Part shown: piece by piece, positions 17,096 to 39,500 of the stretch
Layout: each line of letters begins with the position of its first letter
How positions within the stretch are numbered: the stretch's first letter is position 1
Source: Cladocopium goreaui
Lineage: Eukaryota > Sar > Dinophyceae > Suessiales > Symbiodiniaceae
Direction of reading: 5' to 3'
Assembly (NCBI GenBank): GCA_947184155.2
Contig: CAMXCT020000475.1
Location: 7,861 to 71,860 of the forward strand
Length of the DNA stretch: 64,000 nucleotides
Notes under the pieces: generated by a model
The model's input: only the letters and a program-made list of their open reading frames with translations
The model's database searches: none
What the model was told of the DNA's origin: nothing
Translations under genes and position numbers: made by a program

Positions 17096-18185
17096 AACTC
17101 CGAAGCTCAACCGAGTGCCGCGTTCGTTGGGGTTCGGAACAAGAGAGTTTGCAAGGGGATGAGAAGTGATACTGAGGAACGATTGCAACTGCAGATGGTT
17201 TGGGCTTCTGTGTAGAGGGTAGAGTGTAAAGAGTGTAAAGAGTGTAAAGTGTGCAGTGAGGAGTGCGGTGAAAGAAACTGAAGGAAAATCGTTAACAGCA
17301 GGGGGAAAATGGAAGGCAATAGCGTTTGAAACACGTGGAGTGTACTGTGTGGAGTGACATACAATCTGTTACCCAGCATGGAGTGAGGAGTGTACAGTGT
17401 CACGTGTAAAATTACGGCTGGCTAGGCAAAGTTGTTTTGGCGAACGAAGTGAGTATTAGGGGGTCTGGGGGGTGGACGTCGCGTGTGGTGCCAAAATCTC
17501 GAAATTAGTTGCAGCGGAGGGCGGGCAAATTGAACTTTTTTGGGGGGCATGTACCACTACGCAAAGAGGTGACGGTAGGCGTCGATTCCCCCTAGGTCCG
17601 TTGACTCCGGCAGGAAAAAGGGAGGAAAAAACAAGGAAAATGAAGGAAAATCGTTGAAAACAGGGGGAAAATGGAGGAAAATGGAAGAATGACAGGAAAA
17701 AGGTAGGAAAAAAACGACAGAAAATGAAGGAAAATCGTTAAAAGCAGGGGGAAAACGGAGGAAAATGGAGGAACTCCGAAGCTCAACGGGGAGCAGCGTT
17801 CGTTGGGGTTCGGAACAAGAGAGTTTGCAAGGGGATGAGAAGTGATACTGAGGAAGGGGTGGCGAAGGGTTGCAAAGCAAGGATAACAATTCCAAAGGTG
17901 CTGCAGATGGTTTGGGCTTCTAGTACTGAGGATCATTACAGTAGGGGGTGGAGAGTGACTGCTGTGGGGGGAGTGTACAGTGTAAAGTGGCTCAACGGAG
18001 AGCAGCGTTCGTTGGGGTTCGGAACAAGAGAGTTTGCAAGGGCATGAGAAGTGATACTGAGGAAGGGTTGCAAAGCAAGGATAACAATTCCAACGGTGCT
18101 GCAGATGGTTTGGGCTTCTAGTAGACGATGAACCAGCGGGCTGAGGATCATTACATTACAGTAGGGGGTGGAGAGTGACCGTTGT
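17096..18185. repeat. Mixed repeats: element A 3' module fragments, short satellite, second left-end copy
   Basis: CTCCGAAGCTCAACCGAGTG (17098) and its relatives at 17772 and 17990 carry TTCGTTGGGGTTCGGAACAA and GTGCTGCAGATGGTTTGGGC. 17200-17410 holds heptamer-like satellite, and a truncated left-end module starts near 17415. No gene seen. Confidence 0.75.
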
Positions 18186-19494
18186 GGGGGGAGTGTACAG
18201 TGTAAAGTGTAAAGTGTAGAGTGTGGAGCGTAGAGTGTAGAGTGCAAAGGGCAGAGTGTAAAGTGTAAAGTGCAGAGCGTAAAGTGTAGAGTCTGGAGTG
18301 TCAAGTGTAAAGTGTAGAGTGTGGAGTGTGGAGTGGAAAGTGTAGAGTGTGGAGTGTGGAGTATGGAGTGTGGAGTGTGGAGTATAAGGTGTGGAGTAAC
18401 ATACAATCTTTCACCCACCATGGAGTGAGGAGTGTAAAGTGTAAAGTGTGGAGTGCAGAGTGTAGAGTGTAAAGTGTAGTGTGTAAAGTGTAGAGTGTGG
18501 AGTGTGGAGCGTACAGTGTAGAGTGTGGAGTGTCGAGTGTAAAGTGTGGAGTATGGAGTGTAAAGTGTAAAGTGTAAAGTCCGGAGTGTAGAGTGTAAAG
18601 TGTAGAGTGTAAAGTGTAGAGTGTAAAGTGTAACGTGTAAAGTATGGAGTGTAGAGTGAAGAGTGTAGAGTGTAAAGTGTAGTGTGTGAAGTGTAGAGTG
18701 TGGATTGTGGAGTGTGGAGTGCAAAGTGTGGAGTGTAAAGTGTAAAGTGCAAAGTGTGGAGTGTAGAGTGTAGAGTGTAAAGTGTAGAGTGTAAAATGTA
18801 GAGTGTGGAGTGTAAATTGTGGAGTGTGGAGTGTAAAGTCTGCAGTGAGGAATGAGGAGTGTAAAGTGTAAAGTGTAAAGTATGGCGTGTAGAGTGAAGA
18901 GTGTCGAGTGTAAAGTGTAGTGTGTCAAGTGTAGACTGTGGAGTGTGGCGTGTAAAGTGTAGAGTGTGGAGTGTGGAGTGCAAAGTGTGGAGTGTGGAGT
19001 GTAAAGTGTAAAGTAGAGTGTGGAGTGTAAATTGTGGAGTGTAAAGTCTGCAGTGAGGAATGAGGAGTGTAAAGTGTAAAGTGTAAAGTATGGCGTGTAG
19101 AGTGAAGAGTGTCGAGTGTAAAGTGTAGTGTGTCAAGTGTAGAGTGTGGAGTGTGGCGTGTAAAGTGTAGAGTGTGGAGTGTGGAGTGTAAAGTGTAAAG
19201 TGTGCAGTGAGGAGTGAGGTGTAAAGTGTAAAGTGTAAAGTATGGAGTGTAGAGTGAAGAGTGTCGAGTGTAAAGTGAAGTGGGTCAAGTGTAGAGTGTG
19301 GAGTGTGGCGTGTAAAGTGTAGAGGGTAAAGTGTAGTGTGTAAAGTGTAGAGTACGAGTGGGGAGTCTGGAGTATAAAGTATAAAGTGTAATGTGTAGAG
19401 TGTAAATTGTAGAGTATGGAGTGTGGAGTGAGGGGTGTACAGTGTAAAGTGTAAGGTGTGGAGTGTAGAGTGTAGAGTGTAAAGTGTAGAGTGT
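18186..19494. repeat. AGTGTRR heptamer satellite, tract 1
   Basis: Continuous 7-bp units AGTGTAA, AGTGTAG and AGTGTGG in irregular order. The plus strand is full of TAA/TAG stops; the minus strand is open in all three frames, which explains reverse frames of over 300 codons (TLHSTLYT type). Confidence 0.95.
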
Positions 19495-19740
19495 TCCAAA
19501 TCCTAGCCGGGAGGTCACGGGAGGTCACGGGAGCAAATTGCTGCCATTTGGCGGCCTCTCGGCCGCCTATTGAATTTCTCTTCTGGGATCATTGCGAAAA
19601 GGCCGTTTTGGGCCAAATCCTGGCCGGGGAGGTCACGGGAGGTCATGGGAGGTTACGGGAGGTTACGGGCGGTTATGGAGGAGGAAAACGGAGGAAAGTG
19701 GAGGAAGGGCAGGAAAAAGTGAGGAGAAAACCAAAGAAAA
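19495..19740 (+). repeat. Module C (satellite-associated unit), copy 1
   Basis: Recurring block with CTATTGAATTTCTCTTCTGG, GATCATTG, CGGCCGTTTTGGGCCAAATC, CTGGCCGGGAGGTCACGGGA repeats and a terminal GGAGGAAAACGGAGGAAAG stretch. It ends where the next heptamer tract begins. Confidence 0.85.
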
Positions 19741-20735
19741 GTGTGGAGGGTAGAGTGTAGGGTGTAAAGTGTAGAGTGTGGAGTGTAAAGTGTGGAGTGT
19801 GGAGTGAGGAGTTTAAAGTGTAAAGTGTAAAGTTTGGAGCGGAGAGTGAAGAGTGTAGAGTGTAAAGTGTAGTTTGTAAAGTGTAGAGTGTAGAGTGTCG
19901 ATTGTAAAGTGTGGAGTATGGAGTGTAAAGTGTAAAGTGTAAAGTATGGAGTGCAGAGTGTAAAGTGTGGAGTGTAAAGTGTCGAGTGTGGAGTGTAAAG
20001 TGTGGCGTGTAGCGTGTAAAGTGTGCTGTGAGGAGTGGGGAGTGTAAAGTGTAACGTGTAAAGTAGGGAGTGTAAAGTGTAATGTGTAGAGTGTAAGGTG
20101 TAGAGTATGGAGTGTGGTGTGGGAGGTTACGGGAGGTTACGAGCGGTTATGGAGGAGGAAAACGGAGGAAAGTGGAGGAACGGCAGGGAAAAGGTAGGAG
20201 AAAACCAAAGACAATGACGGAAATGTCACTTGTAAAGTGTAGAGTGTGGAGTGTGGAGTGGAAAGTGTAGAGTGTAGAGTGTAGAGTGTAGAGTGTAGAG
20301 TGTAGAGTGTGAGGTGTAGAGTGTAAAGTGTAGAGTGTGGAGTGTAAAGTGTGGAGTGTAAAGTGTAAAGTGTGCAGTGAGCAGTGAGGAGTGTAAAGTG
20401 TAAAGTGTAAAGTGTAAAGTGTAAAGTGTAAAGTGTAAAGTATGGAGTGTAGAGTGTCAAGCGTAGAGTGTAAAGTGAAGTGTGTCAAGTGTAGAGTGTG
20501 GAGTGCAAAGTGTAGAGTGGAAAGTGTAGTGTGGAAAGTGCAGAGCGTGGAGTGAGGAGTCTGGAGTGTAAAGTGTAATGTGTAGAGTGTAAAGTGTAGA
20601 GCATGGAGTGTGTGTGTACAGTGTAAAGTGTAAGACGTGGAGTGTAGAGTGTAGAGTGTAGAATGTGAAGAGTGGAGTGTGGAGTGTGAAGTGTGGAGTG
20701 TGGAGCGTTTTGCTGTGTTTGTGTCTGTTTGTGTC
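19741..20735. repeat. AGTGTRR heptamer satellite, tracts 2 and 3
   Basis: Satellite at 19741-20120 and 20225-20705, separated by a short remnant of module C (20121-20224, GGTTACGGGAGGTTACGAGC then GAGGAAAACGG). Confidence 0.93.
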
Positions 20736-21134
20736 TATGTCTGTCTCTGTATGGGAGGGAGGTTACAGTGGTTACAGTTGGCTACGGGAGGTTACGGGGA
20801 AGCATGGGAGCAACTTTCTGCCATTTAGCGGCCCTTCTTTCGGCTATTGAATTTCTATTCTGGGATCATTGGGAAACGGCCATATTGGTCCAAATCCTAG
20901 CCGGGAGGTCACGGGAGGTCACGGGAGCAAATTGCTGCCATTTGGCGGCCGCTCGGCAGCCTATTGAATTTCTCTTCTGGGATCATTGCGAAAGGTCACG
21001 GGAGGTCACGGGAGGTCACGGGAGGTTGGGGGGGGTTACGGGAGGTTACGGGCGGCTATGGAGGAGGAAAACGGAGGCAAGTGGAGGAACGGAAAAAAAG
21101 GTAGGAGAAAACCAAAGAAAATGACGGAAATGTC
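20736..21134 (+). repeat. Module C, copy 2
   Basis: Begins with GTCTGTCTCTGTATGGGAGG, then GGAGCAACTTTCTGCCATTT, two CATTTGGCGG-type segments, tandem AGGTCACGGG and the purine-rich tail ending ATGACGGAAATGTCAAGTG, which runs directly into the satellite. Confidence 0.85.
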
Positions 21135-22485
21135 AAGTGTAAAGTGTAGAGTGCGGAGTGTGGAGTGGAAAGTGTAGTGTAAAGTGTGGAGTGTGGAGTG
21201 TAAAGTGTGCAGTGAGGAGTGAGGAGTGTAAAGTGTGGAGTGTGGAGTGTAAAGTGTGCAGTGAGGAGTGAGGAGTGTAAAGTGTAAAGTGTAAAGTATG
21301 GAGTGTAGAGTGAAGAGTGTCGTGTGTAAAGTGAAGTGTGTCAAGTGTAGAGTGTGGCGTGTTCAAGTGTAGAGTGTGGAGTGTGGCGTGTAAAGTGTAG
21401 AGTGTAAAGTGTAGTGTGTAAAGTGTAGCGTATGGAGTGTGGAGTGAGGGGTGTACAGTGTAAAGTGTAAGGTGCAGAGTGCAGAGTGTGGAGTGTCAAG
21501 CGTAGAGTGTAAAGATGTGTAAAGTGCAGAGTGTGGAGTGTAAAATGTGGAGTGCGGAGTGAGGAGTAAAAAAGTGTAAAGTGTGGAGTGTAGAGTGTAG
21601 AGTGTAAAGTGTAGAGTGTAAAGTGTAGAGTGTGGAGCGTCAAGTGTGCAGTGAGGAGTGAGGAGTGTAAAGTGTAAAGTGTAAAGTATGGAGTGGAGAG
21701 TGAAGAGTGTAAAGTGTAGTGTGTAAAGTGTAGAGTGTGGAGTGTGGAGTGTAAAGTGTAGAGTGTGGAGTGTGGAGTGTAAAGTGTGGAGGGCGGAGTG
21801 TAAAGTGGAAAGTGCGGAGTGCAGAGTGTAGAGTGTAAAGTGTAGAGTTTAAAGTGTAACGTGTAAAGTATGGAGTGTAAAGTGTGGAGTGTGGAGTGTG
21901 GAGTGTAAAGTGTGCAGTGAGCAGTGAGCAGTGAGGAGTGCAAAGTGTAACGTGTAAAGTATGGAGTGTCGAGTGAAGAGTGTAGAGTGCAACGTGTAGA
22001 GTGCAACGTGTAGTGTGTAAAGTGTGGAGTGTAAAGTGTGGAGTGTGGAGTGCAAAGTGTAAAGTGCAAAGTGTGGAGTGTAGAGTGTAGAGTGTAGAGT
22101 GTAAAGTATGGAGTGTAAAGTGTGGAGTGTGGAGTGTGGAGTGTAAAGTGTGGAGTGTGGAGTGTAAAGTGTGCAGTTTGCAGTGAGGAGTGTAAAGTGT
22201 AAAGTGTAAAGTATGGAGTGTAGAGTGAAGAGTGTCGAGTGTAAAGTGTAGTGTCAAGTGTAGAGTGTGGAGTGTAAAGTGTAGAGTGTAAAGTGTAGTG
22301 TGTAAAGTGTAGAGTGTGGAGTGTGGAGTGTAAAGTGTAAAGTGTTGACTGTGTAAAGTGTAGAGTGTGGAGTGTAAAGTGTGTTGTGAGGAGTGTAGAG
22401 TGTAAAGTGTAGAGTGTAAAGTGTAGAGTGTAAAGTGTAGACTGCGGAGTGTGGAGCGTGGAGTGTAAAGTGTAGAGTGATGTGT
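21135..22485. repeat. AGTGTRR heptamer satellite, tract 4
   Basis: About 1.35 kb of the same heptamers, with occasional 1-2-bp slippage. Not coding. Confidence 0.95.
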
Positions 22486-23229
22486 GTATGTCTGTCTGTG
22501 TCTGTGTCTGTCTCTGCATGGGAGGGAGGTGACAGTTGGCTACGCGAGGTTACGGGGAAGCATGGGAGCAGCTTTCTGCCATCTAGCGGCCCTGGAGTGT
22601 GGAGTGTAAAGTGTGGAGTGTAAAGTGTAAAGTGCGGAGTGTAGAGCGTAGAGTGTACAGTAAAGTGTAGAGTGTAAAGTGTAGAGTGTGGAGTGTAGAG
22701 TGTGGAGTGTAAAGTGTGCAGTGAGGAGTGAGGAGTGCAAAGTGTAAAGTGTAAAGTATGGAGTGTAGAGTGCCGAGTGTAAAGTGTAGAGTGTAAAGTG
22801 TAGAGTGTAAAGTGTAGAGTGTAAAGTGTAGAGTGCTGTGTGTATGTCTGTCTGTGTCTGTGTCTGTCTCTGTATGGGAGGGAGGTGACAGTTGGCTATG
22901 CGAGGTTATGGGGAAGCATGGGAGCAACTTTCTGCCATTTAGCGGTCCTTCGGTCAGCTATTGAATTTCTCTTCTAGGATCATTGGGAAACGGCCATATT
23001 GGTCCAAATCCTAGCCGGGAGGTCACGGGAACTCTTCTGGGATCATTGCGAAACAGCCGTTTGGGGCCAAATCCCGGCCGGGAGGTCACGGGAGGTCATG
23101 GGAGGTTACGGTAGGTTACGGGAGGTTACGGAGGAGGAAAACGGAGGAAAGTGGAGGAACGGCAGGAAAAAGGTTGGAAAAAAACGAAAGAAAATGAAGG
23201 AAAATCGTGAAAAGCAGGGGGAAAATGGA
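22486..23229 (+). repeat. Module C copies 3 and 4 around a short satellite tract
   Basis: A truncated module C (22486-22592) is followed by 22593-22840 heptamer satellite. A longer module C then ends in AACGGAGGAAAGTGGAGGAA and a polypurine stretch at 23150-23229. Confidence 0.8.
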
Positions 23230-23806
23230 GGAACATGGAGGAACTCCGAAGCTCAACGGAGAGCAGCGTCCGTTGGGGTTCGGAACAAGATAGTTTGCAG
23301 GGGGATGAGAAGTGATACTGAGGAAGGGGGGGCGAAGGGTTGCAAAGCAAGGAGAAGTCCTCCAAAGGTGCTGCAGATGGTTTGGGCTTCTAATCTAGTT
23401 CATACGGGGTTGTAAGAGGACGTTTGAGGTGATAACCGAGAGCAGCGTCCGTTGGGGTTCGGAACAAGATAGTTTGCAAGGGGATGAGAAGTGATACTGA
23501 GGAAGGGGTGGAGAAGGGTTGCAAAGCCAGGATAACAATTCCAAAGGTGCTGCAGATGGTTTGGGCTTCTAATCTAGTTCGTACGGGATTGTAAGAGGAC
23601 GTTTGGGGTGATTGTAAGAGGACGTTTGGGCTTTTTGTATATGACGATTGAGTTTGAAATATGATGATTAACCAGTGGGTTGAGGATGCTTACTATAGGG
23701 ATCAACAGAGTAGCCCATTTAAACAACATTAGACAACTACCACGACATTTCTCTGCGGAAACAAAAAGATTCGGGCTCGGGGCTGGCTTTCGTCTCCCCT
23801 TCTCAG
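23230..23806 (+). repeat. Element A right-end module with terminal inverted repeat
   Basis: Contains two tandem copies of TCCGTTGGGGTTCGGAACAA...GCTGCAGATGGTTTGGGC, then CACGACATTTCTCTGCGGAA, GGCTGGCTTTCGT (23781-23793, inverted complement of the left end) and CTCCCCTTCTCAG (ends 23806). Immediately after it starts locus B sequence, TTGTATACTTGTG. Confidence 0.8.
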
Positions 23807-26800
23807 GTTGTATACTTGTGTATAGATGCACAAATAGTCATGACATTGTATTGCTTGTTTGCTGCTGCAGGACGAAAGTACTGCAATTGCCAAAGACGAT
23901 TTTTCTTTCAAGCCTTTGCAACACAGCGTGGGAAAATGTCTTGGACGAATTATCTCTTTGGGATGTGATCTCCATCTACCTGGCCCATGGGAGTTGGTGA
24001 TGCGCCACCGAGGCTGACGGCTCCGTTGGCCAACACAGCGAACGCTGGGAGCCCCGCTGGCTTCTTGGAGGAGTGGATTGAGTGCACTGAGTGGACTGAT
24101 TGGACGGGCCCATGATTCCAACATCCTAGGTGTCCAGCACGCAGCAGTTTTTTTTCACGGCAATTTTCGGTTCACTGTAGTAATTTAGATTAATTTAGGG
24201 ACAACCAAAGCTTGGGATGTTCCCTACTAGTATGTTGCACTGTGTGTTCATATCATTTCATATCCACATTTTCCACATTTCACTACTGTATGCCTTGTGG
24301 TCCAGGCCTTCACTCTTTGGATCACGATACATGTCACTTGGTAGCAAGCGGCGCAAGGCTTGGACCTGCTTTGGACCTGCTTTGGACCCGCTTGGAGCTG
24401 CGTGGAAGTTTATTTTTCCATACTTTTCCATCAAGGAACATCTTGATGCATCAAGCCATTCGTCAAGCTGGATGGAAGGAGGATAAACTATGAGGTTTTT
24501 CCAACACTCATGCTGCTATGCCTAGCTAGGTTGTACTAGATGTTCTTTTCGACCTGGCATCATGGGCGGAGCAGTCCAATCAGGCCAGAACTTCGGCCGT
24601 GCCTCAGAGCTGGTGATGCATTACCAACCCTCTTTAATCACTCAAACAAGTCTTAGAGATTTTTAGAGGTTTTTGATTATGTAAATTATGCAACTCGACT
24701 TATGTTTTGTTGGGATACTATAGTGAGACAATTTGTTGGCGACCAATTTGCTTGTAGTGAGAAACAAGAGAAACAAGCAGAGATACTCCTAGACTGGATA
24801 CCTCGTGATTTTAACACATGTTCAATCTGGTTGTGTGAAAACTCCAAAAACATAACTCTCACAGCAACTTGTTTATTCAGATGCAAGAGTCCATCGGCAC
24901 ACCATGCTTTTGCAGTTGATTTCACTGGGGCTGTCAATTCATTGGTTGATTTGGTTGGCCTCAGGTACTGCAGGAGGCTGGGTTGGAGAAGCTCTTGCAG
25001 ACATGTGAGAAGATTGTGAAGAAAATAGATCCTGAAGCTCGTCTAAGCATGGTTGGAATTAATTGAGATTTCATGAGATTCCGTATTTCATTGTTATTTG
25101 GCCTTGTTTCCACAGCAACTGATCACTTGCTTTCTCCATGTATCCAGTGGAACAAATAGTTGCAGTGAAGGAACGCATTCCAAGTTAGAATTATACTATG
25201 CCTCAAAAGAATTGTAGACCCGACTAGAGTTTCCAATCTCAAAGAGACAGTGGCAGCAGACCTGAGATCGAAATGATTGAAATCTAGCTACACTTGAGCT
25301 CACCGTATGCTTGCTTGTATGCTTGCTCATAGTAGGTTACGATCACAATTGAGCCACTTCAATTCAGAAACTAAAAGGATCTAAAAGGCATTGAAGCACC
25401 AAGGAATCGCCAGAGAAGCCACGCAACTTGAAGCAATTGTGGGCATTGGGAATTTTGGAGAACGTGTGGGCTTCGTATTTGGAATTAGTTTGTGTGGGTG
25501 CGAATCAAACTCAGCACTTCAGAGATCAACTGGCAAAATCAAAAGCTAGATGCGTCAACAAAACAATTTTCCGCACGCCCACATGCAGCCATCGCCCATG
25601 GATATTTGAAGCAGCAGGGTAGTTGACATGATGTGTGTCGCAGCCAAGGCAAGCGTCGCCGAATCACAGAAGCCGGAAACAGCAGCTGAACTGCACTTTG
25701 CTCTTCGCCTGAAGTGGCTGTCGAAGCCACATTTCAGATGAGCGTTTGCCAGTTGGCCAATTTGATGTGAGCGGGTCGTTTGTACCGTAGTGTCTGACTG
25801 ATTCGCCACGGATTGACTCGGATTGACATTGTCAGATCATCAGGAAAGACGTGGACGTGTGGACTTACAAAAGATGCCATGGAGCTGCCCTAAGATCTTG
25901 GAGGCATGGCTTTGTAGGTCCAGCACTTCATATTCTACGAACTGTAATTACAGGAGCGTTCGGAAGATGGCTTTCTATGTGTCGTCAAGTGGCAGTGTCT
26001 TGAAGCGAATTGCCGAGAGGTCACGGCGATGTAGCCCATGGATCTCATACTGCGCGTGGAATTTGCTCAGACAGGTAGAAACACTCTTGATTCTCTGGAT
26101 GACCTGGAACAGCGAGCCGAAGACTTGACCACTTCAAGCAATTGATGCTGGAATCAATTAGAATTGTAACACTGATGAGTTCCTACCCGAAGATTCAGCA
26201 AATTGTCCTTGAAGTGTAATGGCAATAACATACCAGCCAGTCAGATTTTCATCCACATGATTATGTCATCCAGAGACGCGGCCTCGAGTGTCGAGACTGC
26301 CCGAAGTCTTGTAGCAGTCTCATGTTACCAGGAGGAAGATGGAGTTGAGAACTAAAGCACAGGATTATTCTCACTCTTTAACATCTGCCAATGGCCCAGC
26401 CAGCAACGTGCAAGGTAGCATGGGATCTGCTGCGAGCTGATCCTGCAGGCAAAGTATGCCAAAGGTCACGCGGGAGGAGAGGGCGCAATTGCTAGGAGCG
26501 ACCTGACTTCTCAATTGCCATGGTTCCGGAATGTTTCAGGGCTGCTTGTTCTCATTAAAATCCACATGGGGTCCACCAAGAGTGATAGCACACTGCTGAT
26601 GCCCTGATCCCGCTCCTCCGGTCGGCGCTTGGGCGCCACCTCACATTGTAAAGAGCTGCAGGGTCATTTTGAGCCAGAGGGACTTGCGCCAGCGCCGCAC
26701 TCGCTTCACTTTGGGACCTTTGACAGATTCTTATTCTCGTTTTTCCAACCTCGCTCTTTCATGGTCTTTGTGAAACTTACAGCCTTTGGGGCAGCGCCTT

Positions 26801-27610
26801 AAAACTCCATTAGGACAGGATTAGGACAGGAACACATTTGCTTCGACAGCTTCGGTTGATCCCTGCAGCTACTGCAATGTGGAATTAGCTGAAAAGCAGC
26901 ACCATTGCACCATTGCACCATTGCAGTAGAAAAGGATGGTCTTGATGGCAGACCTGGTTTTGGAACCCGTCCCCGTTGTTCCACACAGGTATATAAGATT
27001 ATATAAGATTATTCCAAGCAACCTTGATATCGTTACGTGCTGGCCAGACTCCCGAAATGACAGAGCTGCGAAGGTATTGATGAGTGTTTGGTGCCTGGCT
27101 CTGCCACATTTCTGGCGCCGCCAAGAGGCTTCAAAGACAACGACATTTAAGATGCTGTATGTCACTGTATGTGTTGTGAGAGCTGAGAGCTTCTGAGTGC
27201 GATGGTTGGCTTGCACAGAGTCAGGATACAATACCTTCGTTCCCAATTCTCGTGCCTGAAATGTTATTTGATGTTAATTTGTTACTATTTATGCGGTATT
27301 ACATTGGTTTTACATAGTTTTGCTAAACGGCATTTGAATTTATGAAATCGCAACAAAAAACCAATGGACTTCCAGCACTAGACGTTAGTCCTCATCGTTC
27401 AAGACAGCTGGAGTTAAAAGATCAGGCTGGACCGCCAGGGTTTGAAACATGGCTGAATGGCAATTCGCGGGATTTGCCCTGGAGTGGCTTCCTGCCGAGT
27501 ATGCCTCAAACTCGGCGCCACGTGGGCGAAAGGCTGGGAGATTTTTTTTGGCGCATTGGAGGATTGGTTACAGTTGTGAAATCACTTCAGCATGAGACGA
27601 AACCAAGTAA

Positions 27611-27711
27611 TAATGTGGGTAAAGTGATAATAAACCATCCCCCAAATCACCAAAAATATGTGGTATAAACCATTCCCAAGCGGGTGGTTTATTATTGTTT
27701 TACCCACATTA
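27611..27711. mobile_element. Foldback (MITE-like) element in a candidate intron
   Basis: Ends TAATGTGGGTAAAGTGATAA and TTATTGTTTTACCCACATTA form roughly 29-bp inverted repeats around a 42-bp centre with CCATCCCCCAAATCACCAA. The second copy is at 40285-40385. The centre motif also occurs near 31645 (inverted), 41350 and 41768. Confidence 0.65.
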
Positions 27712-28109
27712 TATGAATATAATTGAATATAGAGATCGCAGTGAAAATGACCAGGCGGAAGTCTTCTTGGAACATGATGTGCCGAGAATGGCGGAAGCAG
27801 TTCACGAGCAGGCTAGGGGCTTCTGCATGCATTTCTTTGAACAAACGTGAACAAGTGAAACAAAGCAAAAAACACTTGTCGAGCAGGCTGCGGAGCAGTA
27901 CTGTGCAGTGCTGGACCTGTGGCAGGCTTGCTGTGGCAAGTTGGCAGTCTCATCACGAAAGGTAGCTCCAGAGGGGCTACCTTGAGTTTTACTTTACGAA
28001 GTAAAGGGGAGGGCGGCCAGCCCCGTTACCTGATTCTTCAGGAGATTGCTAGTCATTTTAGTACCCCCCCCCCCTCCACACCTCCCACGCACCCTAAGAG
28101 CAGACTCAA

Positions 28110-28390
28110 AACATTGTAATTTACAGTATTTTTGTTCTTTTCGGATCAAGAAACCACATTTTGCTACATGGTGAAACCTCCGTAAATACCAGTGTTTTTG
28201 CTAGGTGCTGGCCAAAAAACACTGTAAATACCGTGCTTTTTACTACCAGAGGCAAAAAACATCGTAAATACCGTGGTTTTGGGCTTCCGACCCGCCAAAA
28301 ACATTGGTATTTACGGTGTTTTTTGCTCCGAGAGATGCAAAAACACGCGAAAACACCACCGATTTGACGATTTTCGGCCACTACGGAACC
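28110..28390. repeat. Repeat family D (GTAAATACCG-type), copy 1
   Basis: Imperfect units of about 50 bp with CACTGTAAATACCGTGCTTT, CATCGTAAATACCGTGGTTT and an inverted CATTGGTATTTACGGTGTTT. Related sequence occurs at 48090-48720. Confidence 0.7.
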
Positions 28391-28396
28391 GAGCAA

Positions 28397-30463
28397 AAAC
28401 GCTGCAGGGGTAACACCAACACCAACACCACCACCAACAAGAACAACACCAACAGCAACAGCAACAGCAACAACAACAACAACGACGACGACGACCACAA
28501 CAACAACAACAACAACAACAACACCAACGCACAACGCACAACGCACAACGCACAACGCACAACGCACAACGCACAACGCACAACGCACAACACACAAAAC
28601 ACACAAAACACACACACAACACACACAACACACACAACACACACAACACACACAACACACACAACACACACAACACACACACAACACACACACAACACAC
28701 AACACACAACAACACACAACAACACACAACAACACACAACAACACACACAACAACACACAACAACACACACACACAACAACACACACACAACACACGCAA
28801 CACACACAACACACAACAACACACAACAACACACAACAACACACAACAACACACAACAACACACAACAACACACAACAACACAACAACTCAACAACAACA
28901 CACAACAACACACAACAACACACCACAACACACACAACAACACAAACAACACACAACAACACACCACAACACACAACAACACACAACAACACACAGCAAC
29001 ACACAGCAACACACACAACAACACAACAAGAAACAGAGACAACAAATCAACAACAACGACAAGGACAACAAGAAAAACAACAAAACAACAAACTAACAGC
29101 ACAGGGGGACAACAAACAACACACAACAACACACACACACAACAACACACACACAACACACGCAACACACACAACACACAACAACACACAACAACACACA
29201 ACAACACACAACAACACACAACAACACACAACAACACACAACAACACAACAACTCAACAACAACACACAACAACACACAACAACACACCACAACACACAC
29301 AACAACACAAACAACACACAACAACACACCACAACACACAACAACACACAACAACACACAGCAACACACAGCAACACACACAACAACACAAACAACACAC
29401 AACAACACACCACAACACACACACAACAACACACAACAACACACAACACACACACACAACAACACAACACCACACCACAACACACAACAACACACAACAA
29501 CACACAACAACACACAACAACACACAACAACACACAACAACACACAACAACACACAACAACACACAACAACACACAACAACACACCACAACACACCACAA
29601 CACACCACAACACACCACCACACACAACCACACACAACCACACACAACCACACACAACCACACACACAACCACACACAACCACACACAACCACACACAAC
29701 CACACACAACAACACACAACAACACACAACAACACACAACAACACACAACAACACACAACAACACACAACAACACACAATAACACACAATAACACAACAA
29801 CACACAACAACACACAACAACACACACAACAACACACAACAACACACACACACACAACAACACACAACAACACACAACAACACACCACAACGCACAACAA
29901 CACACAACAACACACGCAACACGCAACAAAACAACACAACAACAACACACAACAACACACAACAACACACACACACACAACAACACAAACAACACACAAC
30001 AACACACCACAACACACCACAACACACACACACACAACAACACACAACAACACACAACAACACACAACAACACACCACAACACACCACAACACACCACAA
30101 CACACAACAACACACCACAACACACCACAACACACAACAACACACAACAACACACAACAACACACAACAACACACACAACAACACAAACAACACACAACA
30201 ACACACCACAACACACCACAACACACACCAAACAGCAACACAACAGTCTATGAGTGTAACAGAACAACAGCACACAACAGCACACAACAGCACACAACAG
30301 CACACAACAGCACACAACAGCACACAACAGCACACAACAGCACACAACAGCACACAACAGCACACAACAGCACACAACAGCACACAACAGCACACAACAG
30401 CACACAACAGCACACAACAACAACAACAACAACACCATCAGCAGCAGCAGCAGCAACAACAGC

Positions 30464-30494
<31 letters not shown>

Positions 30495-30752
30495 GGAACA
30501 CAAACAATACCAACACCAACAACACGACCAACAACACCAACACCACCAACAAACCCAACCACACCAACAACACTAACAACACTAACAACACCAGAAACAC
30601 TACCACCACCAACAACACCAACAACACCAATACCAACAACACCAACAACACCAACAACAACACCAACAACACCAATACCAACAACACCAACAACACCAAC
30701 ACCATCAGCAGCACCAACACCACCAACACCACAACCACCACCAACCCTAACC
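28397..30752. repeat. AAC/AC compound microsatellite
   Basis: About 2.35 kb of ACACAACAAC, ACACACAAC, CACCACAAC and, at 30266-30415, about 15 copies of ACAGCACACA. The end turns into AACACCAACACC. The strand lacks G and T almost entirely, so both strands are open over hundreds of codons (QQHTTTHNN and CVLLCVVVCC types); these are not genes. A block of about 210 bp is duplicated (28790-29035 and 29150-29385). Confidence 0.97.
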
Positions 30753-31151
30753 ACATCGCCGAAGCCTTTCAGTGGCTTTTACCAGACTCCCCTTCATATT
30801 TTTGGAAAGAAAATGGCTGCGTCGCTTTTACCAGAATCCACTTTATGTTTTTTTCCCTGCCCTTTCCCCTTCATTTTTTCTTCGGTTCCTTTCTTGCTTA
30901 CCTACCTTTCGTGTTCCCCTCTCAAGTTGGTTCATGCGCCTTGATGCGCCTTGTGCGCCAGGCTATCCAGAGTGCCTTTTCGTGCTGCTGCACCCCGGTG
31001 GTCGATTGAGGCAAGAGCCATCGCGTAATATCGCCAAGGTGAAGTCCGGTGAAGTGCACAAAGTTCTGACATCATCTTCAATTTCAAACATGAAGTCTCG
31101 AAAGCTAGAAATAGGAATAGGCAATAGAAGAGTTTTACCCTTAGAAACTGT

Positions 31152-31600
31152 TACGAAAGCCAGCCGATAGGCTAGGCAAAGTTTTTTTGGCGAACGAAGT
31201 GAGTATTAGGAGGTCTGGGGGGTGGTCGTCGCGTATGGCGCCAAAATCTCGAAATTAGTTGCAGTGGAGGGTGGGTACATTGAACTTTTTTGGGGGGCAT
31301 GTACCACTACGCAAAGAGGTGACGGTAGGCTTCGATTCCCCCTAGGTCCGTTGACTCCGGCAGGAAAAAGGGAGGAAAAAAGCAAGGAAAATGAAGGAAA
31401 ATCGTTGAAAACAGAGGAGAATGGAGGCAAATGGAGGAATGACGGGAAAAAGGTAGGAAAAAAACGAAGGAAAATCGTTGAAAACAGGGGGAAAATGGAG
31501 GAATGCCAGGTAGGAAAAAAGCGACAGAAAAGGAAGGAAAATCGTTGAAAACCTGGGTAGCAAAAATGCGAATGCCACATGACACTGGCCCACAGGTAGC
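31152..31600 (+). repeat. Element A left-end module, copy 2, with short polypurine tract
   Basis: Starts TACGAAAGCCAGCC after TTAGAAACTGT of locus B and carries the same AAAGAGGTGACGGTAGGCTT and AGGTCCGTTGACTCCGGCAG sequences. It ends in polypurine units near 31550. Confidence 0.85.
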
Positions 31601-32064
31601 CATGAAAGACAGTATATTTATATATATATATATATATCCATAAAATTGGTGATTTGGGGGATGGTTTATGGCAGTCAGTGGATTCCAACCTATGCTAAAC
31701 TCGAATAGGATTGTTCATATCACGGTTGCTCCTCTAACTAGAAGACATAATTTAGTGGCTCCATTTTGGAGGCAGTTATCCACATCCAAGTTTATGGATT
31801 ATTTCTGTTTGGTTGCGACCACCCCTGGCACAATGACCAGCGCAAGAGTTGCTAGGCTAACATCGAAACAAACATGCTGTTACCATCCGTTACCTCGAAT
31901 GCCGAGTTTGGGGTACTGCTTGGGAGCTATGAAAGGGTGCCTTTTGACAAGTGGAGGACACTGTCATAACCAATCAATGTGTGTGTGTGTGTGTCTTGTT
32001 AAAGGGATGTGGCAAAGTCTATAATAAGCCTACCATTTGGGGAGGATTTTAATCCTATCCTACT
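31601..32064 (+). repeat. Repeat family E (single copy here, palindromic in copy 2)
   Basis: After a (TA)n run at 31618-31637 come TTGGTGATTTGGGGGATGGT, GGATTCCAACCTATGCTAAA, GGCTCCATTTTGGAGGCAGT and a (GT)n run near 31978. The same sequence appears at 41947-42303 and inverted at 41405-41760. A plus-strand frame of about 118 codons has no recognisable motif. Confidence 0.75.
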
Positions 32065-32400
32065 GGGAGGCATGGGAGCAACTTTCTGCCATTTAGCGGC
32101 CCTTCGGTCGGCTATTGAATTTCTCTTCTGGGATCATTGGGAAACGGCCGTTTTGGGCCAAATCCTAGCCGGGAGGTCACGGGAGGTCACGGGAGCAAAT
32201 TTCTGCTATTTGACGCCCCTCGACGACCAATTCAATTTCTCTTCTAAAATCATTGCAAAACGGCCGTTTTAGGCCAAATCCTGGCCGGGAGGTCACGGGA
32301 GGTCACGGGAGGTTACAGGCGGTTACGGAGGGAGAAACGGAGGAAAGTGGAGGAACGGCAGCAAAAAGGTAGGAGAAAACCAAAGAAAATGACGGAAATG
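32065..32400 (+). repeat. Module C, copy 5
   Basis: GGCATGGGAGCAACTTTCTG, CGGCCCTTCGGTCGGCTATT, tandem AGGTCACGGG and a purine-rich tail, running directly into the satellite at ATGACGGAAATGTCAAGTG. Confidence 0.87.
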
Positions 32401-34062
32401 TCAAGTGTAAAGTGTAAAGTGTAGAGTGTGGAGTGTGGAGTGGAAAGTGTAGTGTAGAGTGTAAAGTGTAGAGTGTAAAGTGTAGAGTGTGGAGTGTAAA
32501 GTGTGGAGTGTGGAGTGTCAAGTGTGCAGTGAGGAGTGGGGAGTGTAAAGTGTAAAGTGTAAAGTATGGAGTGTAGAGTGAAGAGTGTCGAGTGTAAAGT
32601 GTAGTGTGTAAAGTGTAGAGTGTGGAGTGTGAAGTGTAGAGTGTAAAGTGTAGTGTGTAACGTGTAGAGTGTGGAGTGTAAAGTGTAAAGTGCAGAGTGT
32701 AAAGTGTAGAGTGTGGAGTGTGGAGTGAGGGGTGCACAGTGTAAAGTGTAAGGTGTGGAGTGTAGAGTGTAGAGTGTGGAGTGTGGAGTGTAGAGTGTAA
32801 AGTGTAGAGTGTAAAGTGTAAAGTGTGGAACGAGAAGTGTACAATGTAAAGTGTAAAGTGTGGAGTGTGGAGTGTAGAGTGTAAAGTGTAGAGTGTAAAG
32901 TGTAGAGTGTAAAGTGTAAAGTGTGGAGTGAGAAGTGTACAGTGTAAAGTGTAAAGTGTGGAGTGGAGAGTGAAGAGTGTAGAGTGTAGAGTGTAAAGTG
33001 TAAAGTGTAGTGTGTAAAGTGTAGAGTGTGGAGTGTGGAGTGTAAAGTGTAGAGTGTGGAGTGTAGAGTGTGGAGTATGGAGTGTAAAGTGTAAAGTGGA
33101 AAGTGGGGAGTGTAGAGTGACGAGTGTAAAGTGTAGAGTGTGGAGTGTAAAGTGTAGAGTGTGGAGTGTAAAGTGTGGAGTGTGGAGTGTGAAGTGTGGA
33201 GTGTGGAGTGTAGAGTGTAAAGTGTAAAGTGTGGAGCGAGAAGTGTACAATGTAAAGTGTAAAGTGTGGAGAGTAGAGTGTAGAGTGTAAAGTGTAGAGT
33301 GTAAAGTGTAGAGTGTGGAGTGTAAAGTGTGGAGTGTGGAGCGTCAAGTGTGAAGTGTGGAGTGTAAAGTGTAAAGTGTAAAGTGTAAAGTATGGAGTGG
33401 AGAGTGAAGAGTGTAGAGTGTAAAGTGTAGTGTGTAAAGTGCAAAGTGTGGAGTGTAAAGCGTGGAGTGTGGAGTGTGAAGTGTAAAGTGTGGATTATGG
33501 AGTGTAAAGTGTAAAGTGGAAAGTGTGGAGCGTAGAGTGTAAAGTGTAGAGTGGAGAGTGTGGAGTGTAGAGTGTAAAGTGTAGAGTGTAGAGTGTAAAG
33601 TGTGGAGTGTAGAGTGTAGAGTGAAGAGTGTAGAGTGTAAAGTGTAGAGTGTGGAGTGTAAAGTGTGGAGTGTGGAGCGTCAAGTGTGCAGTGAGGAGTG
33701 TAAAGTGTAAATTGTAAAGTGTAAAGTATGGAGTGGAGAGTGAAGAGTGTAGAGTCTAAAGTGTAGTGTGTAAAGTGTAGAGTGCGGAGTGTGGAGTGTA
33801 AAGTGTAGAGTGTGGAGTGTAAAGTGTGGAGTATGGAGTGTAAAGTGTAAAGTGGAAAGTGTGGAGTGTAGAGTGTAGAGTGTGGAGTGTAAAGTGTCAA
33901 GTGTAGTGTGTAAAGTGTAGAGTGTGGAGTGTGGAGTCTAAAGTGCAAAGTGTAGAGTGTAGAGTGAAGTGTAGAGTGTAGAGTGTGGAGTGTAAAGTGT
34001 GGATCTGGAGTGTAAAGTGTGCAGTGAGGAGTGAGGAGTGTATAGTGTAAAGTGTATCCTTG
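32401..34062. repeat. AGTGTRR heptamer satellite, tract 5
   Basis: 1.66 kb of the heptamers. Higher-order repetition is visible: GAAGTGTACARTGTAAAGTG blocks and GGAGTGGAGAGTGAAGAGTG blocks recur at several hundred bp. The minus strand is open over 476 codons by repetition alone. Confidence 0.95.
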
Positions 34063-34650
34063 TGTACATTTCCACTATGAAATGGCTTGACCCATGTTCC
34101 ATTCCAGGGGCATTTTTCTAACAAAAGGATGCATTTTGTAAGGACATTTTTCTGGTCAACCATGCCATTTTGTAAAAAATGTGTTTTTTGCTTGGCGAAC
34201 CAACTTTCTTTACAAAATGAACTCGGGGCCAATCATTTCATAACGCAGTTTTGGGTTCATTTCAGGCAGTGCAAAAAAGGGTATTGAAATCTTGGCCATG
34301 TCCAGGAACCAGGGTTTCTTCTCTAATTTTTTTTGGGTTCCACCATTGATGTGTGAAGAACCGGCAAGACAGCACTAAGTCAACCAACCAGAAAAGGTGA
34401 TATCAAACTTTCTGGTTTTTTTTTTCCAAACTTTGGCGACTGGGAAAAAATTGTGGGGTTCCCTGGGGAAAGTTGGACTTGTACAAGTAAGACATGTTTC
34501 CAAACAAACAATTTTTTAATACACAAGCTTATACGATGATTGGGTTTGGGGGCCTGGAAATTAACTTGGGGCAACCATTTTGTAAGGAGCCGATTTTTGT
34601 TTTTCCCGAGAGCGCCTGCGAAGGGTTCTTCGTAAAAAAGCAGCCGTTAT
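34063..34650 (+). other. Non-satellite segment conserved in both duplicated copies
   Basis: Matches 44416-45010 at about 97%. It contains repeated ATTTTGTAAGGACATTTTTC and CATTTTGTAAAAA phrases. No convincing exon; frames of 60-111 codons run into the satellite. Confidence 0.6.
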
Positions 34651-34654
34651 AATA

Positions 34655-35215
34655 CATCTTCACACCTCACACTGCTCTACATCTTCACATCCTCACACCT
34701 GCTGATCTACATCTTCACACCCTCACACCTGCAGATCTACATCTTCACATCCTCACACCTGCTGATCTACATCTTCACATCCTCACATCTGCAGATCTAC
34801 ATCTTCACATCCTCACACCTGCTGATCTACATCTTCACATCCTCACATCTGCAGATCTACATCTTCACATCCTCACACCTGCTGATCTACATCTTCACAC
34901 CCTCACACCTGCAGATCTACATCTTCACATCCTCACATCTGCAGATCTACATCTTCACATCCTCACACCTGCTGCTGATCTACATCTTCACATCCTCACA
35001 TCTGCAGATCTACATCTTCACATCCTCGCACCTGCAGATCTACATCTTCACACCCTCACACCTGCAGATCTACATCTTCACATCCTCACATCTGCTGATC
35101 TACATCTTCACACCCTCACACCTGCAGATCTACATCTTCACACCCTCACACCTGCAGATCTACATCTTCACACCCTCACATCTGCAGATCTACATCTTCA
35201 CACCCTCACATCTGC
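34655..35215. repeat. 30-bp tandem repeat, about 19 copies (copy 1)
   Basis: Period 30, unit starting ATCTACATCTTCACATCCTC followed by ACACCTGCAG or ACATCTGCTG. Variation is confined to a few positions. The second copy is at 45012-45605. Confidence 0.95.
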
Positions 35216-35278
35216 GGATCTTCTCTCGCTCTTCTTTCTATCTCTCTCTTAAGGCCAGGGGCGGTGCCGCCGGAGCGC

Positions 35279-35570
35279 CACGAAACGCAACCCTTTCGCA
35301 CGAAATGGACGTTGGACGTCCAAAACCTAGGTAAAATTGCGATTTTGAAGCGTCCATCGCAACCCCTTCGCACGAAATGGACGTTGGACGTCAAAAATTG
35401 GTGAAAAATTGCGACTTTGATGCGTCCCCGGCAACCTTTTCGCACGAAATGGACGTTGGACGTCAAAAACTGAGGAAAAATTGCGATTTTACTTGGTCAA
35501 TCGCAACCCTGTCGCACGAAATGGACGTTGGACGTCAAAAACTGAGGAAAAATTGCGATTTTACTTGATG
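35279..35570. repeat. ~72-bp tandem repeat with GGACGTTGGACGTC, copy 1
   Basis: Units carry CGCACGAAATGGACGTTGGA, CGTCAAAAACTGAGG and AAAATTGCGATTTT. The reverse strand is open as a 24-residue periodic frame (NVHFVRKGCDGR). It lies directly after the 30-bp repeat in both duplicated segments. Confidence 0.9.
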
Positions 35571-35847
35571 GTGGCTACCTGCCGACATGCGCAGGCCAGT
35601 TCTGCGGCCGTACTGTGTTTCCACTGTTTTTTTGTTGCTCTGACCCTCAGCAAAACCCAGAAACGACTGGATAATGGATTATGCGAATCTCATGCCCGCG
35701 TCCTCATGCCTTTGGTGATACAAAGACCTTGTGAGGCCGCAGGCGGAAGCCTGCCTTGTGTCCTGCCTTGTGTGCTCCTCTCCCAAGCACGCTCTTGCCG
35801 CGAGGATCTCGAGCAGGCCCATGGGAAACGGCATTTTGAATTCTCAG

Positions 35848-36043
35848 CCGACAATATCCGGCGCTGAAATTTGGCAAGGTGGCTTGGACCCTTCGCCGGC
35901 TCCGCAAAGAAGCAAGCCTAGATCCCACACAAGCCAAGGTGGCAGTTGGGAAGGGTTGGAATTCAACTTTATGTGCTCTTAGAGAGTTGCCTGAAGCCCA
36001 CACAGACTTTGTAGTCGTGGCCTCGTTGAGTGCTGATGTTTGA
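35848..36043 (+). CDS. Locus B copy 2, candidate exon 1 (unrecognised)
   Basis: After the acceptor-like GAATTCTCAG (ends 35847) the frame is open to TGA 36041. It reads YPALKFGKVAWTLRRLRKEA, continuing DPTQAKVAVGKGWNSTLC and LPEAHTDFVVVASL. Composition looks like real protein, unlike the surrounding repeats. There is no ATG in this frame, so it should be an internal exon; its donor, possibly GTAGTC after GACTTT, is not settled. The other long frame here (35731-35982) looks less natural. Confidence 0.4.
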
Positions 36044-36113
36044 TAGGTTTTGGAAGCGGTACATCGGGTTGAATCTCTGGTGTTAGAGCCTTGGGATGCC
36101 TTGGGTCTTGCAG

Positions 36114-36173
36114 GACTTCTGCACAACTTTGCATGAGGCTGTGGAGTTCTTGCACAAGGAGATAAATATGAAT
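36114..36173 (+). CDS. Locus B copy 2, candidate exon 2 (20 codons)
   Basis: Bounded by the acceptor TTGGGTCTTGCAG and the donor GTGAGAC. It encodes DFCTTLHEAVEFLHKEINMN exactly in frame. It is too short for homology. A small further exon may follow at about 36323-36358 (after AATCTGCAG, before GTTGAGTG), encoding either GAAVGRNVLQPK or GSGRKKRASTK depending on phase. Confidence 0.4.
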
Positions 36174-36501
36174 GTGAGACTCCTTGGGTCAGTTGTTGTT
36201 GCTTTCAACATCCTTTGGACAAATCACATTAAATCAGAAACCAGAACGCCTCATAAGAGCGATGCTTTTTTGTCAATGTCAACCTGACCATTTTGACATG
36301 TATGCTGCAGCAATCTGCAGGGGGCAGCGGTCGGAAGAAACGTGCTTCAACCAAAGGTTGAGTGGATATTGTTCCAATACCCCCAGTGGACTGCATCCTG
36401 TTGTATCCTACAGCGTGGTATGACAATCGCTATATCAAAGTGGCCATTTGTGGGTATTTGGTATTCACCATTTTCAGACGCACCTGTATGTGTGTATAAT
36501 A

Positions 36502-39500
36502 TTGTATACTTGTGTATAGATGCACAAATAGTCATGACATTGTATTGTTTGTTTGCTGCTGCAGGACGAAAGTACTGCAATTGCCAAAGACGATTTTTCT
36601 TTCAAGCCTTTGCAACACGGCGTGGGAAAATGTCTTGGACGAATTATCTTTGGGATGTGATCTCCATCTACCTGGCCCATGGGAGTTGCTGATGCGCCAC
36701 CGAGGCTGACGGCTCCGTTGGCCAACACAGCGAACGCTGGGAGCCCCGCTGGCTTCTTGGAGGAGTGGATTGAGTGCACTGAGTGGACTGAGTGGACTGA
36801 TTGGACGGGCCAACATCCTAGGTGTCCAGCACGCAGCAGCTTTTTTTCACGGCAATTTTCGGTTCACTTTAGTAATTTAGATTAATTTAGGGACAACCAA
36901 AGCTTGGGATGTTCCCTACTAGTATGTTGCACTGTGTGTTCATATCATTTCATATCCACATTTTCCACATTTCACTACTGTATGCCTTGTGGTCCAGGCC
37001 TTCACTCTTTGGATCACGATACATGTCACTTGGTAGCAAGCGGCGCAAGGCTTGGACCTGCTTTGGACCTGCTTTGGACCCGCTTGGAGCTGCGTGGAAG
37101 TTTATTTTTCCATACTTTTCCATCAAGGAACATCTTGATGCATCAAGCCATTCGTCAAGCTGGATGGAAGGAGGATAAACTATGAGGTTTTTCCAACACT
37201 CATGCTGCTATGCCTAGCTAGGTTGTACTAGATGTTCTTTTCGACCTGGCATCATGGGCGGAGCAGTCCAATCAGGCCAGAACTTCGGCCGTGCCTCAGA
37301 GCTGGTGATGCATTACCAACCCTCTTTAATCACTCAAACAAGTCTTAGAGATTTTTAGAGGTTTTTGATTATGTAAATTATGCAACTCGACTTATGTTTT
37401 GTTGGGATACTATAGTGAGACAATTTGTTGGCGACCAATTTGCTTGTAGTGAGAAACAAGAGAAACAAGCAGAGATACTCCTAGACTGGATACAACATGA
37501 TTTTAACACATGTTCAATCTGGTTGTGTGAAAACTCCAAAAACATAACTCTCACAGCAACTTGTTTATTCAGATGCAAGAGTCCATGGGCACACCATGCT
37601 TTTGCAGTTGATTTCACTGGGGCTGTCAATTCATTGGTTGATTTGGTTGGCCTCAGGTACTGCAGGAGGCTGGGTTGGAGAAGCTCTTGCAGACATGTGA
37701 GAAGATTGTGAAGAAAATAGATCCTGAAGCTCGTCTAAGCATGGTTGGAATTAATTGAGATTTCATGAGATTCCGTATTTCATTGTTATTTGGCCTTGTT
37801 TCCACAGCAACTGATCACTTGCTTTCTCCACGTATCCAGTGGAACAAATAGTTGCAGTGAAGGAAAGCATTCCAAGTTAGAATTATACTATGCCTCAAAA
37901 GAATTGTAGACCCGACTAGAGTTTCCAATCTCAAAGAGACGGTGGCAGCAGACCTGAGATCGAAATGATTGAAATCTAGCTACACTTGAGCTCACCGTAT
38001 GCTTGCTCGTATGCTTGCTCATAGTAGTTTGCGATCACAATTGAGCCACTTCAATTCAGAAACTAAAAGGATCTAAAAGGCATTGAAGCACCAAGGAATC
38101 GCCAGAGAAGCCACGCAACTTGAAGCAATTGTGGGCATTGGGAATTTTGGAGAACGTGTGGGCTTCGTATTTGTAATTAGTTTGTGTGGGTGCGAATCAA
38201 ACTCAGCACTTCAGAGATCAACTGGCAAGATCAATAGCTAGATGCGTCAACAAAACAATTTTCCGCACGCCCACATGCAGCCATCGCCCATGGATATTTG
38301 AAGCAGCAGGGTAGTTGACATGATGTGTGTCGCAGCCAAGGCAAGCGTCGCCGAATCACAGAAGCCGGAAACAGCAGCTGAACTGCACTTTGCTCTTCGC
38401 CTGAAGTGGCTGTCGAAGCCACATTTCAGAAGAGCGTTTGCCAGTTGGCCAATTTGATGTGAGCGGGTCGTTTGTACCGTAGTGTCTGACTGATTCGCCA
38501 CGGATTGACTCGGATTGACATTGTCAGATCATCAGGAAAGACGTGGACGTGTGGACTTATAAAAGATGCCATGGAGCTGCCCTAAGATCTTGGAGGCATG
38601 GCTTTGTAGGTCCAGCACTTCATATTCTACGAACTGTAATTACAGGAGCGTTCGGAAGATGGCTTTCTATGTGTCGTCAAGTGGCAGTGTCTTGAAGCGA
38701 ATTGCCAAGAGGTCACGGCGATGTAGCCCATGGATCTCATACTGCGCGTGGAATTTGCTCAGACAGGTAGAAACACTCTTGATTCTCTGGATGACCTGGA
38801 ACAGCGAGCCGAAGACTTGACCACTTCAAGCAATTGATGCTGGAATCAATTAGAATTGTAACACTGATGAGTTCCTACCCGAAGATTCAGCAAATTGTCC
38901 TTGAAGTCTAATGGCAATAACATACCAGCCAGTCAGATTTTCATCCACATGATTATGTCATCCAGAGACGCGGCCTCGAGTGTCGAGACTGCCCGAAGTC
39001 TTGTAGCAATCTCGTGTTACCAGGAGGAAGATGGAGTTGAGAACTAAAGCACAGGATTATTCTCACTCTTTAACATCTGCCAATGGCCCAGCCAGCAACG
39101 TGCAAGGTAGCATGGGATCTGCTGCGAGCTGATCCTGCAGGCAAAGTATGCCAAAGGTCACGCGGGAGGAGAGGGAGCAAATTGCAGGAGCGACCTGACT
39201 TCTCAATTGCCATGGTTCCGGAATGTTTCAGGGCTGCTTGTTCTCATTAAAATCCACATGGGGTCCACCAAGAGTGATATCACACTGCTGATGCCCTGAT
39301 CCCGCTCCTCCGGTCGGCGCTTGGGCGCCACCTCACATTGTAAAGAGCTGCAGGGTCATTTTGAGCCAGAGGGACTTGCGCCAGCGCCGCACTCGCTTCA
39401 CTTTGGGACCTTTGACAGATTCTGATTCTCGTTTTTCCAACCTCGCTCTTTCATGGTCTTTGTGAAACTTACAGCCTTTGGGGCAGCGCCTTAAAACTCC

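Follow-up and report, generated by a model that had tools for sequence, protein, structure and literature searches.

Long elements with introner-like ends and satellite interiors insert at a single T and share the strand of their neighbours in Cladocopium goreaui

Introners rank among the foremost candidates for mass intron gain and abound in dinoflagellates. In the account of Gozashti et al. 2022 (PMC9860276), introners of Symbiodinium microadriaticum have inverted repeats, generate 4-bp duplications, carry their own 3' splice site and take the 5' splice site from the duplication; the example described there is 115 bp long, and introner families over all species comprise from 5 to over 2000 copies, their median lengths lying between 30 and 654 nt. 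Introner elements of Amoebophrya, as Farhat et al. 2021 (PMC7789003) describe them, have 8-20-nt inverted repeats at the intron ends and a predicted hairpin, and the annotated introns show 3-5-nt direct repeats and very varied splice sites. The definition given for introner elements of Prorocentrum and Suessiales is similar to that used in Amoebophrya (PMC10666404, PMC10522408), introner elements are reported from other dinoflagellates too (PMC11114475), and P. glacialis is credited with thousands of introns that arose recently from introners (Roy et al. 2023, Curr Biol, as reviewed in PMC11453091).

The elements described here, from Cladocopium goreaui, resemble those of S. microadriaticum as published (PMC9860276) in having a dinoflagellate host, terminal inverted repeats (TIRs) and a pyrimidine-AG putative 3' splice site at the right end. 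Unlike them, they insert at one T that is mostly preceded by A rather than G (AT, not GT), measure 0.2 to more than 10 kb and have satellite interiors. With the Amoebophrya elements of PMC7789003 they share inverted repeats plus a hairpin, and they differ in their CTCA(A)G tails and one-base repeat. The likeness to P. glacialis, that of many recent copies in a dinoflagellate, is to the review's description only (PMC11453091).

The starting point is a window of 64,000 nt, the whole stretch of DNA analysed, which holds an insertion here called I1 (27954-30926, 2973 bp; Table 1). Comparison of the window with itself shows I1 missing at 40627/40628 in a second copy of its host locus, to which its left flank is 98.2% identical, and a third copy on another contig (C6162, 95% identical) lacks it as well. 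A sequence-only reading had described a 2.97-kb block absent from the second copy, ending in perfect inverted repeats with a polypyrimidine-AG sequence beyond the right one; its coordinates prove exact, and repeats and tail are as it described them. The inverted pair is perfect over 12 bp and coincides exactly with the boundaries that the empty copies define on their own. The empty site reads TCTCAT/TGGTTC and the filled site TCTCAT(CACGAAAGGTAG ... CTACCTTTCGTGTTCCCCTCTCAAG)TTGGTTC, so that a single T is the whole of the duplicated target. An extra 11 bp within 30927-30960, a near-duplicate of neighbouring sequence, adjoins I1 and is missing in both empty copies.

Table 1. Features of the window, in window coordinates
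Feature	Position	Strand	Basis or detail
I1 left terminal inverted repeat CACGAAAGGTAG	27954..27965	+	12 nt, 100% complementary to 30902-30913
I1 right terminal inverted repeat CTACCTTTCGTG	30902..30913	+	pairs with 27954-27965
I1 tail TTCCCCTCTCAAG, splice-acceptor-like; next base T	30914..30926	+	sequence
I1 hairpin 1: inner half of left TIR with adjacent sequence (AAGGTAGCTCC-AGA-GGGGCTACCTT)	27959..27983	+	sequence
I1 hairpin 2 (TTTACTT-tacg-AAGTAAA)	27988..28005	+	33-element anatomy comparison
I1 CA-rich satellite interior	28413..30733	+	period 10, 237 copies
Segment A, host of I1	23807..31151	+	window self-comparison
Segment A', second copy without I1	36502..40841	+	window self-comparison; six frames without Pfam domain
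Composite block, 39.4 kb, within one rhodanese-like array unit	15922..55365	+	empty sites in other units
E1, 7885 bp, TACGAAAGCCAGCC type, satellite interior; tail CTCCCCTTCTCAG at 23794-23806	15922..23806	+	
E2 left end	31152..31165	+	no right end found in window before 36502
E3	40842..55365	+	left end 40842; right TIR 55340-55352; tail 55353-55365

Five relatives of I1 (L024-L028) have its ends in common, the first ~95-123 bp being 98-100% identical and the last 184 bp about 95-99%, values obtained partly between the relatives themselves and not all against I1; the CA-rich middle varies in length among them. Hairpin 1 was also folded in one of these relatives, L024, which has the 5' end of I1. 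Near the position of hairpin 2, several other subfamilies have CTTGC-tttr-GCAAG or GTGC-ttca-GCAC, and the CAG type has short stems only.

The family extends through the 1.166-Gb assembly to which the window belongs (as contig C475), searched with the same patterns read backwards as a control. The end motif YACGAAAGSYAGS, which matches both ends of an element and has a few matches in bacterial contamination, occurs 4661 times against 439 for the control. Right ends of CAAG type (CTTTCGTN{3,20}CTCAAGT) number 2043 against 311, a tandem array on contig C139 included; those of CAG type (GCTTTCGTN{2,14}TTCTCAGGT) number 612 against 4, and CAG-type left ends (DTTACGAAAGCCAGC) 562 against 2. When both ends and the tail are demanded at about 200 bp, 10 matches are found against 0. 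The dinoflagellate spliced leader has 172 exact matches in the assembly and none in the control, marking the genome as that of a dinoflagellate. Contig C1 (7.4 Mb), the source of L002-L007, looks like a bacterial contaminant, with many kinase domains in long uninterrupted frames. One scan of viral contigs gave no match to the element pattern, and one scan of bacterial genomes gave a single planctomycete match, taken as chance.

Thirty-three complete elements with distinct flanks, 183-7885 bp long, were read from the first contigs listed (low contig numbers); they are not all independent, several belonging to one subfamily and the left flanks of L037, L042, L046 and L056 looking alike. Five other pairs (L047, L059, L063, L074 and a second pair in the window, at 54984) had been dropped because their left ends resembled chance matches, four of them having no T on the left. 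In addition, 46 of 100 listed CAG-type right ends have a partner within 16 kb on the same strand in the list of 100 left ends; these pairs, matched by coordinates only and including a few of the 33, span 0.67-12.1 kb. The genome search thus bears out the expectation, drawn from the window, of a genome-wide family with paired ends, a built-in polypyrimidine-AG tail (present in the 33 elements) and satellite cargo, which is seen in many copies. Many similar copies at different sites of one genome are what introners show; terminal inverted repeats, and empty sites that demonstrate mobility, are what non-autonomous TIR DNA transposons show, and both are found. Two 3.1-kb elements at different sites (L079 and L080) align in blocks of 917 bp and 2226 bp with 97.9 and 98.4% identity, and near-identity at different sites argues that the family has moved recently. 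Fifteen of the coordinate pairs, at 3.07-3.21 kb among the first 558 contigs, make up a homogeneous CAG-type subfamily that is a good target for dating a burst; on C158, C302 and C434 the spacing between left ends is about 3.06 kb, which suggests tandem copies.

Insertion at a single T recurs throughout. T stands on both sides in 17 of 17 complete elements found by a search that demanded no flank base (in four of them, of CAG type, the right T comes after a G that follows the tail), and T precedes the first base in 33 of 33, the T after the tail in this larger set being demanded by search or selection and so no test. Immediately before the left T stands A in 20 of the 33, T in seven and G in six; among 100 listed CAG-type left ends, whose pattern demands T and excludes C, a recount from the listing gives A 68, T 17 and G 15, three of the last being the window's own. 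A 4- or 5-bp target duplication is found in none of the 33, in which flank identity reaches 2 bp twice and 3 bp six times. Starting from the A of ACGAAAG, the ends form perfect inverted repeats of 8-14 bp. In 31 of the 33, the inner portion of the left repeat can pair with the sequence that adjoins it, and for 25 of the 33 shuffles match this hairpin in at most 1% of trials. Subfamilies have arms GGTAGC/GCTACC, GCTAGC/GCTAGC or GCCAGC/GCTGGC and the right repeat changes in step, so the left arm can either fold locally or pair end to end. The long E-type elements have their first 270-420 bp in common, followed by satellites.

The tails come in 19 distinct forms among the 33 elements, 13-24 nt long and ending in a CTCA(A)G that the search demanded, and 389 of 476 bases (82%) before the last four are pyrimidines; the resulting pyrimidine-AG is a putative splice site. 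CAAG-type tails end in CTCAAG, also the last six bases of the spliced leader, and the tail of L064 ends in TTTTGGCCTCAAG where the leader has TTTTGGCTCAAG; both likenesses could be chance.

The window also holds a block of 39.4 kb that had been described as a second insertion of the same design. Its outer ends are indeed as described, and its empty site, GATTATGT/GCTTAATT, is present in four other array units (for example at 2387/2388), but the description as one element does not stand: an additional right end (23781-23806, that of E1) and the left ends at 31152 and 40842 lie inside, so the block is a composite that includes two copies of segment A and no fewer than three elements. For the right end of E1 an empty site is present at the left border of A', and for the left end of E2/E3 one is present on C6162; the site of E2 is empty, as AGAAACTGT/CAATGC, in L060. 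Both ends of E3 probably belong to one element, and recombination between elements may have built the composite. The two copies of segment A (23808-27953 plus 30941-31151 in the first) are about 98% identical, with indels of 2, 8, 13, 3 and 11 bp between them; these indels, and the lack of any Pfam domain in the six frames of A', led to the rejection of segment A as a coding gene. The copy of segment A that hosts I1 keeps no reading frame and has the extra 11 bp beside the insertion.

Large satellites occupy 18191-22835, 34653-35221 and 46084-51483 of the composite, with units of 7 bp (GAGTGTA), 30 bp (TACATCTTCACATCC...) and 16 bp (TGTGTAAAAGCGTCTG). Around it, an array of ~2.69-kb tandem units encodes a rhodanese-like protein on the plus strand (1329-12738, 15506-15911 and 55366-56619), the name resting on a weak PF00581 match under the cut-off; by our reading of the sequence the composite interrupts one unit about 480 bp past the stop codon. 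A C-5 cytosine DNA methylase (PF00145, 1.2e-13) is encoded on the minus strand at 58368-60128, the direction of genes switching between about 56.6 and 58.4 kb of the window.

Published accounts describe one-directional gene blocks in dinoflagellates (PMC11453091; PMC9412976), and the orientation of the elements bears a close relation to such an organisation. Strand was compared over 83 CAAG-type places (86 of 100 listed, less three with chance-like tails) and all 100 listed CAG-type places, with 14 rows of the C139 tandem array left out. Among these listed places, right ends that are neighbours on one contig less than 100 kb apart lie on the same strand in 31 of 32 pairs (7/8 below 25 kb, 8/8 at 25-50 kb and 16/16 at 50-100 kb), against 15 of 27 beyond 100 kb (7/13 and 8/14 by bin). 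Agreement persists in 18 of 19 pairs 5-100 kb apart whose tails, sorted by eye, are of different class, and such pairs are most likely independent insertions. In the window, the elements and the genes of the rhodanese-like array are all on the plus strand.

The same agreement extends to genes elsewhere. Tallied by eye, an element and the nearest kinase or ion-channel domain share a strand on 11 of the 12 contigs that hold both (C23, C94, C175, C360, C435, C557, C3779, C55, C297, C137 and C202, at distances of 46-189 kb); C221, taken from the listed left ends, also agrees, making 12 of 13, and C2046, where element and kinase are on opposite strands, is the sole disagreement. When flanks are read in the direction of the element, their GC skew is positive for 31 of 40 on the right (p = 1.8e-5) and for 22 of 28 on the left, and in the window it is +0.080 for plus-strand genes and -0.084 for minus-strand genes, the link between skew and gene strand being drawn from these two blocks only. 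This strand agreement with neighbours and with gene domains is a new observation. Sense orientation relative to genes, seen here at up to 189 kb rather than within one gene, is what an introner should show and so supports an introner reading; this is the pattern to expect where survival is limited to sense copies, whose acceptor can be used.

Do the elements interrupt coding exons? Across 31 joined insertion sites there is no excess of open frame (mean 71.7 codons in frame, against 63.7 and 63.9 in the shifted frames and 64.2 antisense), and the sense frames at 22 of the 30 loci L030-L059 contain no Pfam domain at E 0.01; both tests rest on a small sample, drawn from low-numbered contigs, and are blind to many short exons. 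Taken with the frame lost at I1 and the AT before most elements, these results give no sign that insertions split recognisable coding exons, though many short exons would be missed. The right flank of L044 has a motif, GSFNPPHQGHL, that we take to be NMNAT-like, roughly 65 codons away on the element's strand and with no Pfam match at 0.01. Nor is any 5' splice site constant: most elements follow AT, and subfamilies differ in their internal GT or GC. The idea that a GT donor is generally taken over from the target is rejected, GT preceding only the 15 G-class ends among the 100 listed CAG-type left ends. A 4-bp duplication that could supply a donor, as in S. microadriaticum, is absent from all 33 elements. 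A universal 9-nt in-frame scar, YACGAAAGT, was likewise abandoned; it fits the GGTAG+CAAG and GCCAG+CAG subfamilies but would be 8 nt in GCTAG+CAAG.

The reading that we consider more likely than not is that I1 is a copy of a large, recently active, non-autonomous family of introner-like DNA elements, with the acceptor role of the tail, the enzyme and the selection on strand inferred. An element begins with YACGAAAG and ends with the matching inverted repeat and a pyrimidine-rich tail of 13-24 nt closing in CTCAAG or CTCAG. Insertion is at a single T, mostly after AT, with the T alone duplicated; a trans-acting enzyme would recognise the paired ends, perhaps aided by the left-arm hairpin. The tail would then act as a 3' splice site. 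Sense copies in one-directional gene blocks would be removed from transcripts or be harmless and antisense copies would be lost, which would give the observed strand agreement with genes. The interior between the fixed ends tolerates satellite growth, so that elements range from 0.2 to over 10 kb and composites reach tens of kb.

Could the tail have nothing to do with splicing? Non-autonomous TIR DNA transposons, or MITEs, have paired inverted ends and many copies, and the present elements resemble them in both respects and in having no coding capacity found. They might be ordinary transposons of this kind, the tail serving as the enzyme's right-end recognition sequence and the strand reflecting insertion bias or selection against other antisense effects. 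We regard this as possible, if clearly less probable than an introner-like origin. The paired ends and full-length mobility are typical of DNA transposons, and neither exonic insertion sites nor a conserved 5' splice site are in evidence. Yet a recognition sequence should be fixed, and the 33 elements have their 19 different tails, which keep mainly pyrimidine richness and the CTCA(A)G that the search demanded. Gene-sense orientation, a variable pyrimidine-AG tail outside the right repeat and satellite interiors of many kb also set the family apart from MITEs. Such strong strand agreement with neighbours and genes is unexpected for ordinary transposons, which should not respect one-directional blocks so strictly, whereas an element with a one-way splice acceptor would. 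In C. goreaui itself, according to PMC9412976, genes that break the blocks are enriched for DNA integration, and block-breaking transposable-element genes are without expression. As to the enzyme, no transposase family was found by Pfam in six frames of the long L013 element and L079, or in three more long loci; the latter do contain a reverse-transcriptase domain (RVT_2, 4.6e-11) and, likewise in a single frame each, three other families, from which, the elements there being bounded on the left only, no conclusion is drawn.

Movement through RNA or a single strand, by reverse splicing or by Helitron-like rolling circle, would make the terminal T the element's own and dispense with target duplication. 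One T only is common to both flanks, compatible with such insertion, local hairpins are present, and a route through RNA or a nascent strand would account for the strand agreement. A tRNA B-box-like motif (GGTTCRANNCC, at most one mismatch) also occurs in sense in 12 of the 33 elements, against one antisense and two shuffled; the 12 fall in about six subfamilies and include L008, L057, L029, L035 and L068. Against these points stand the paired, perfect inverted repeats of 8-14 bp, and the expectation of a donor at the start of a reverse-spliced intron. No tRNA is predicted by ARAGORN in 11 loci, and the number of A-boxes in sense (17) is not far from that in shuffled sequence (10; antisense 7), on which grounds a tRNA-derived SINE is rejected. 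Helitrons begin with TC, end in CTRR and insert between A and T; the present elements start with TC or TT (one with TG) and end in CTCAAG or CTCAGG, and in 13 of 33 the T follows G or T; TT starts and CTCAAG ends do not fit. Such a route is unlikely. A known structured RNA, self-splicing introns included, is rejected too, none of 87 Rfam matches at E up to 1 over 13 loci reaching its gathering score. As for misassembly, the interiors are very repetitive, mis-joined satellite-rich stretches might mimic insertions, and the assembly appears to hold bacterial contamination (C1). The exact termini nevertheless recur at different sites, some complete elements are only 183-288 bp long and an empty site lies on another contig, and we consider an artefact of this kind extremely improbable.

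On present evidence the family is best filed as a long, cargo-bearing, introner-like variant, its design and orientation being judged introner-like from the sequence. Searching the literature for CACGAAAG in connection with introners yielded no paper, a weak result as such sequences mostly sit in supplements. A bolder idea, which we put forward as speculative and doubtful, is that of giant mobile introns: co-directional insertion at a single T, an acceptor of their own, a left arm switching between hairpin and end-to-end pairing, possibly a short in-frame scar in some subfamilies, and satellite growth into introns of tens of kb within gene blocks.

The family separates insertion from being an intron, two things usually studied together, and the strand rule that it follows is strong up to about 100 kb. 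It also offers a route by which satellite blocks of great length come to be framed by small introner-like ends, which bears on the size of dinoflagellate introns and genomes.
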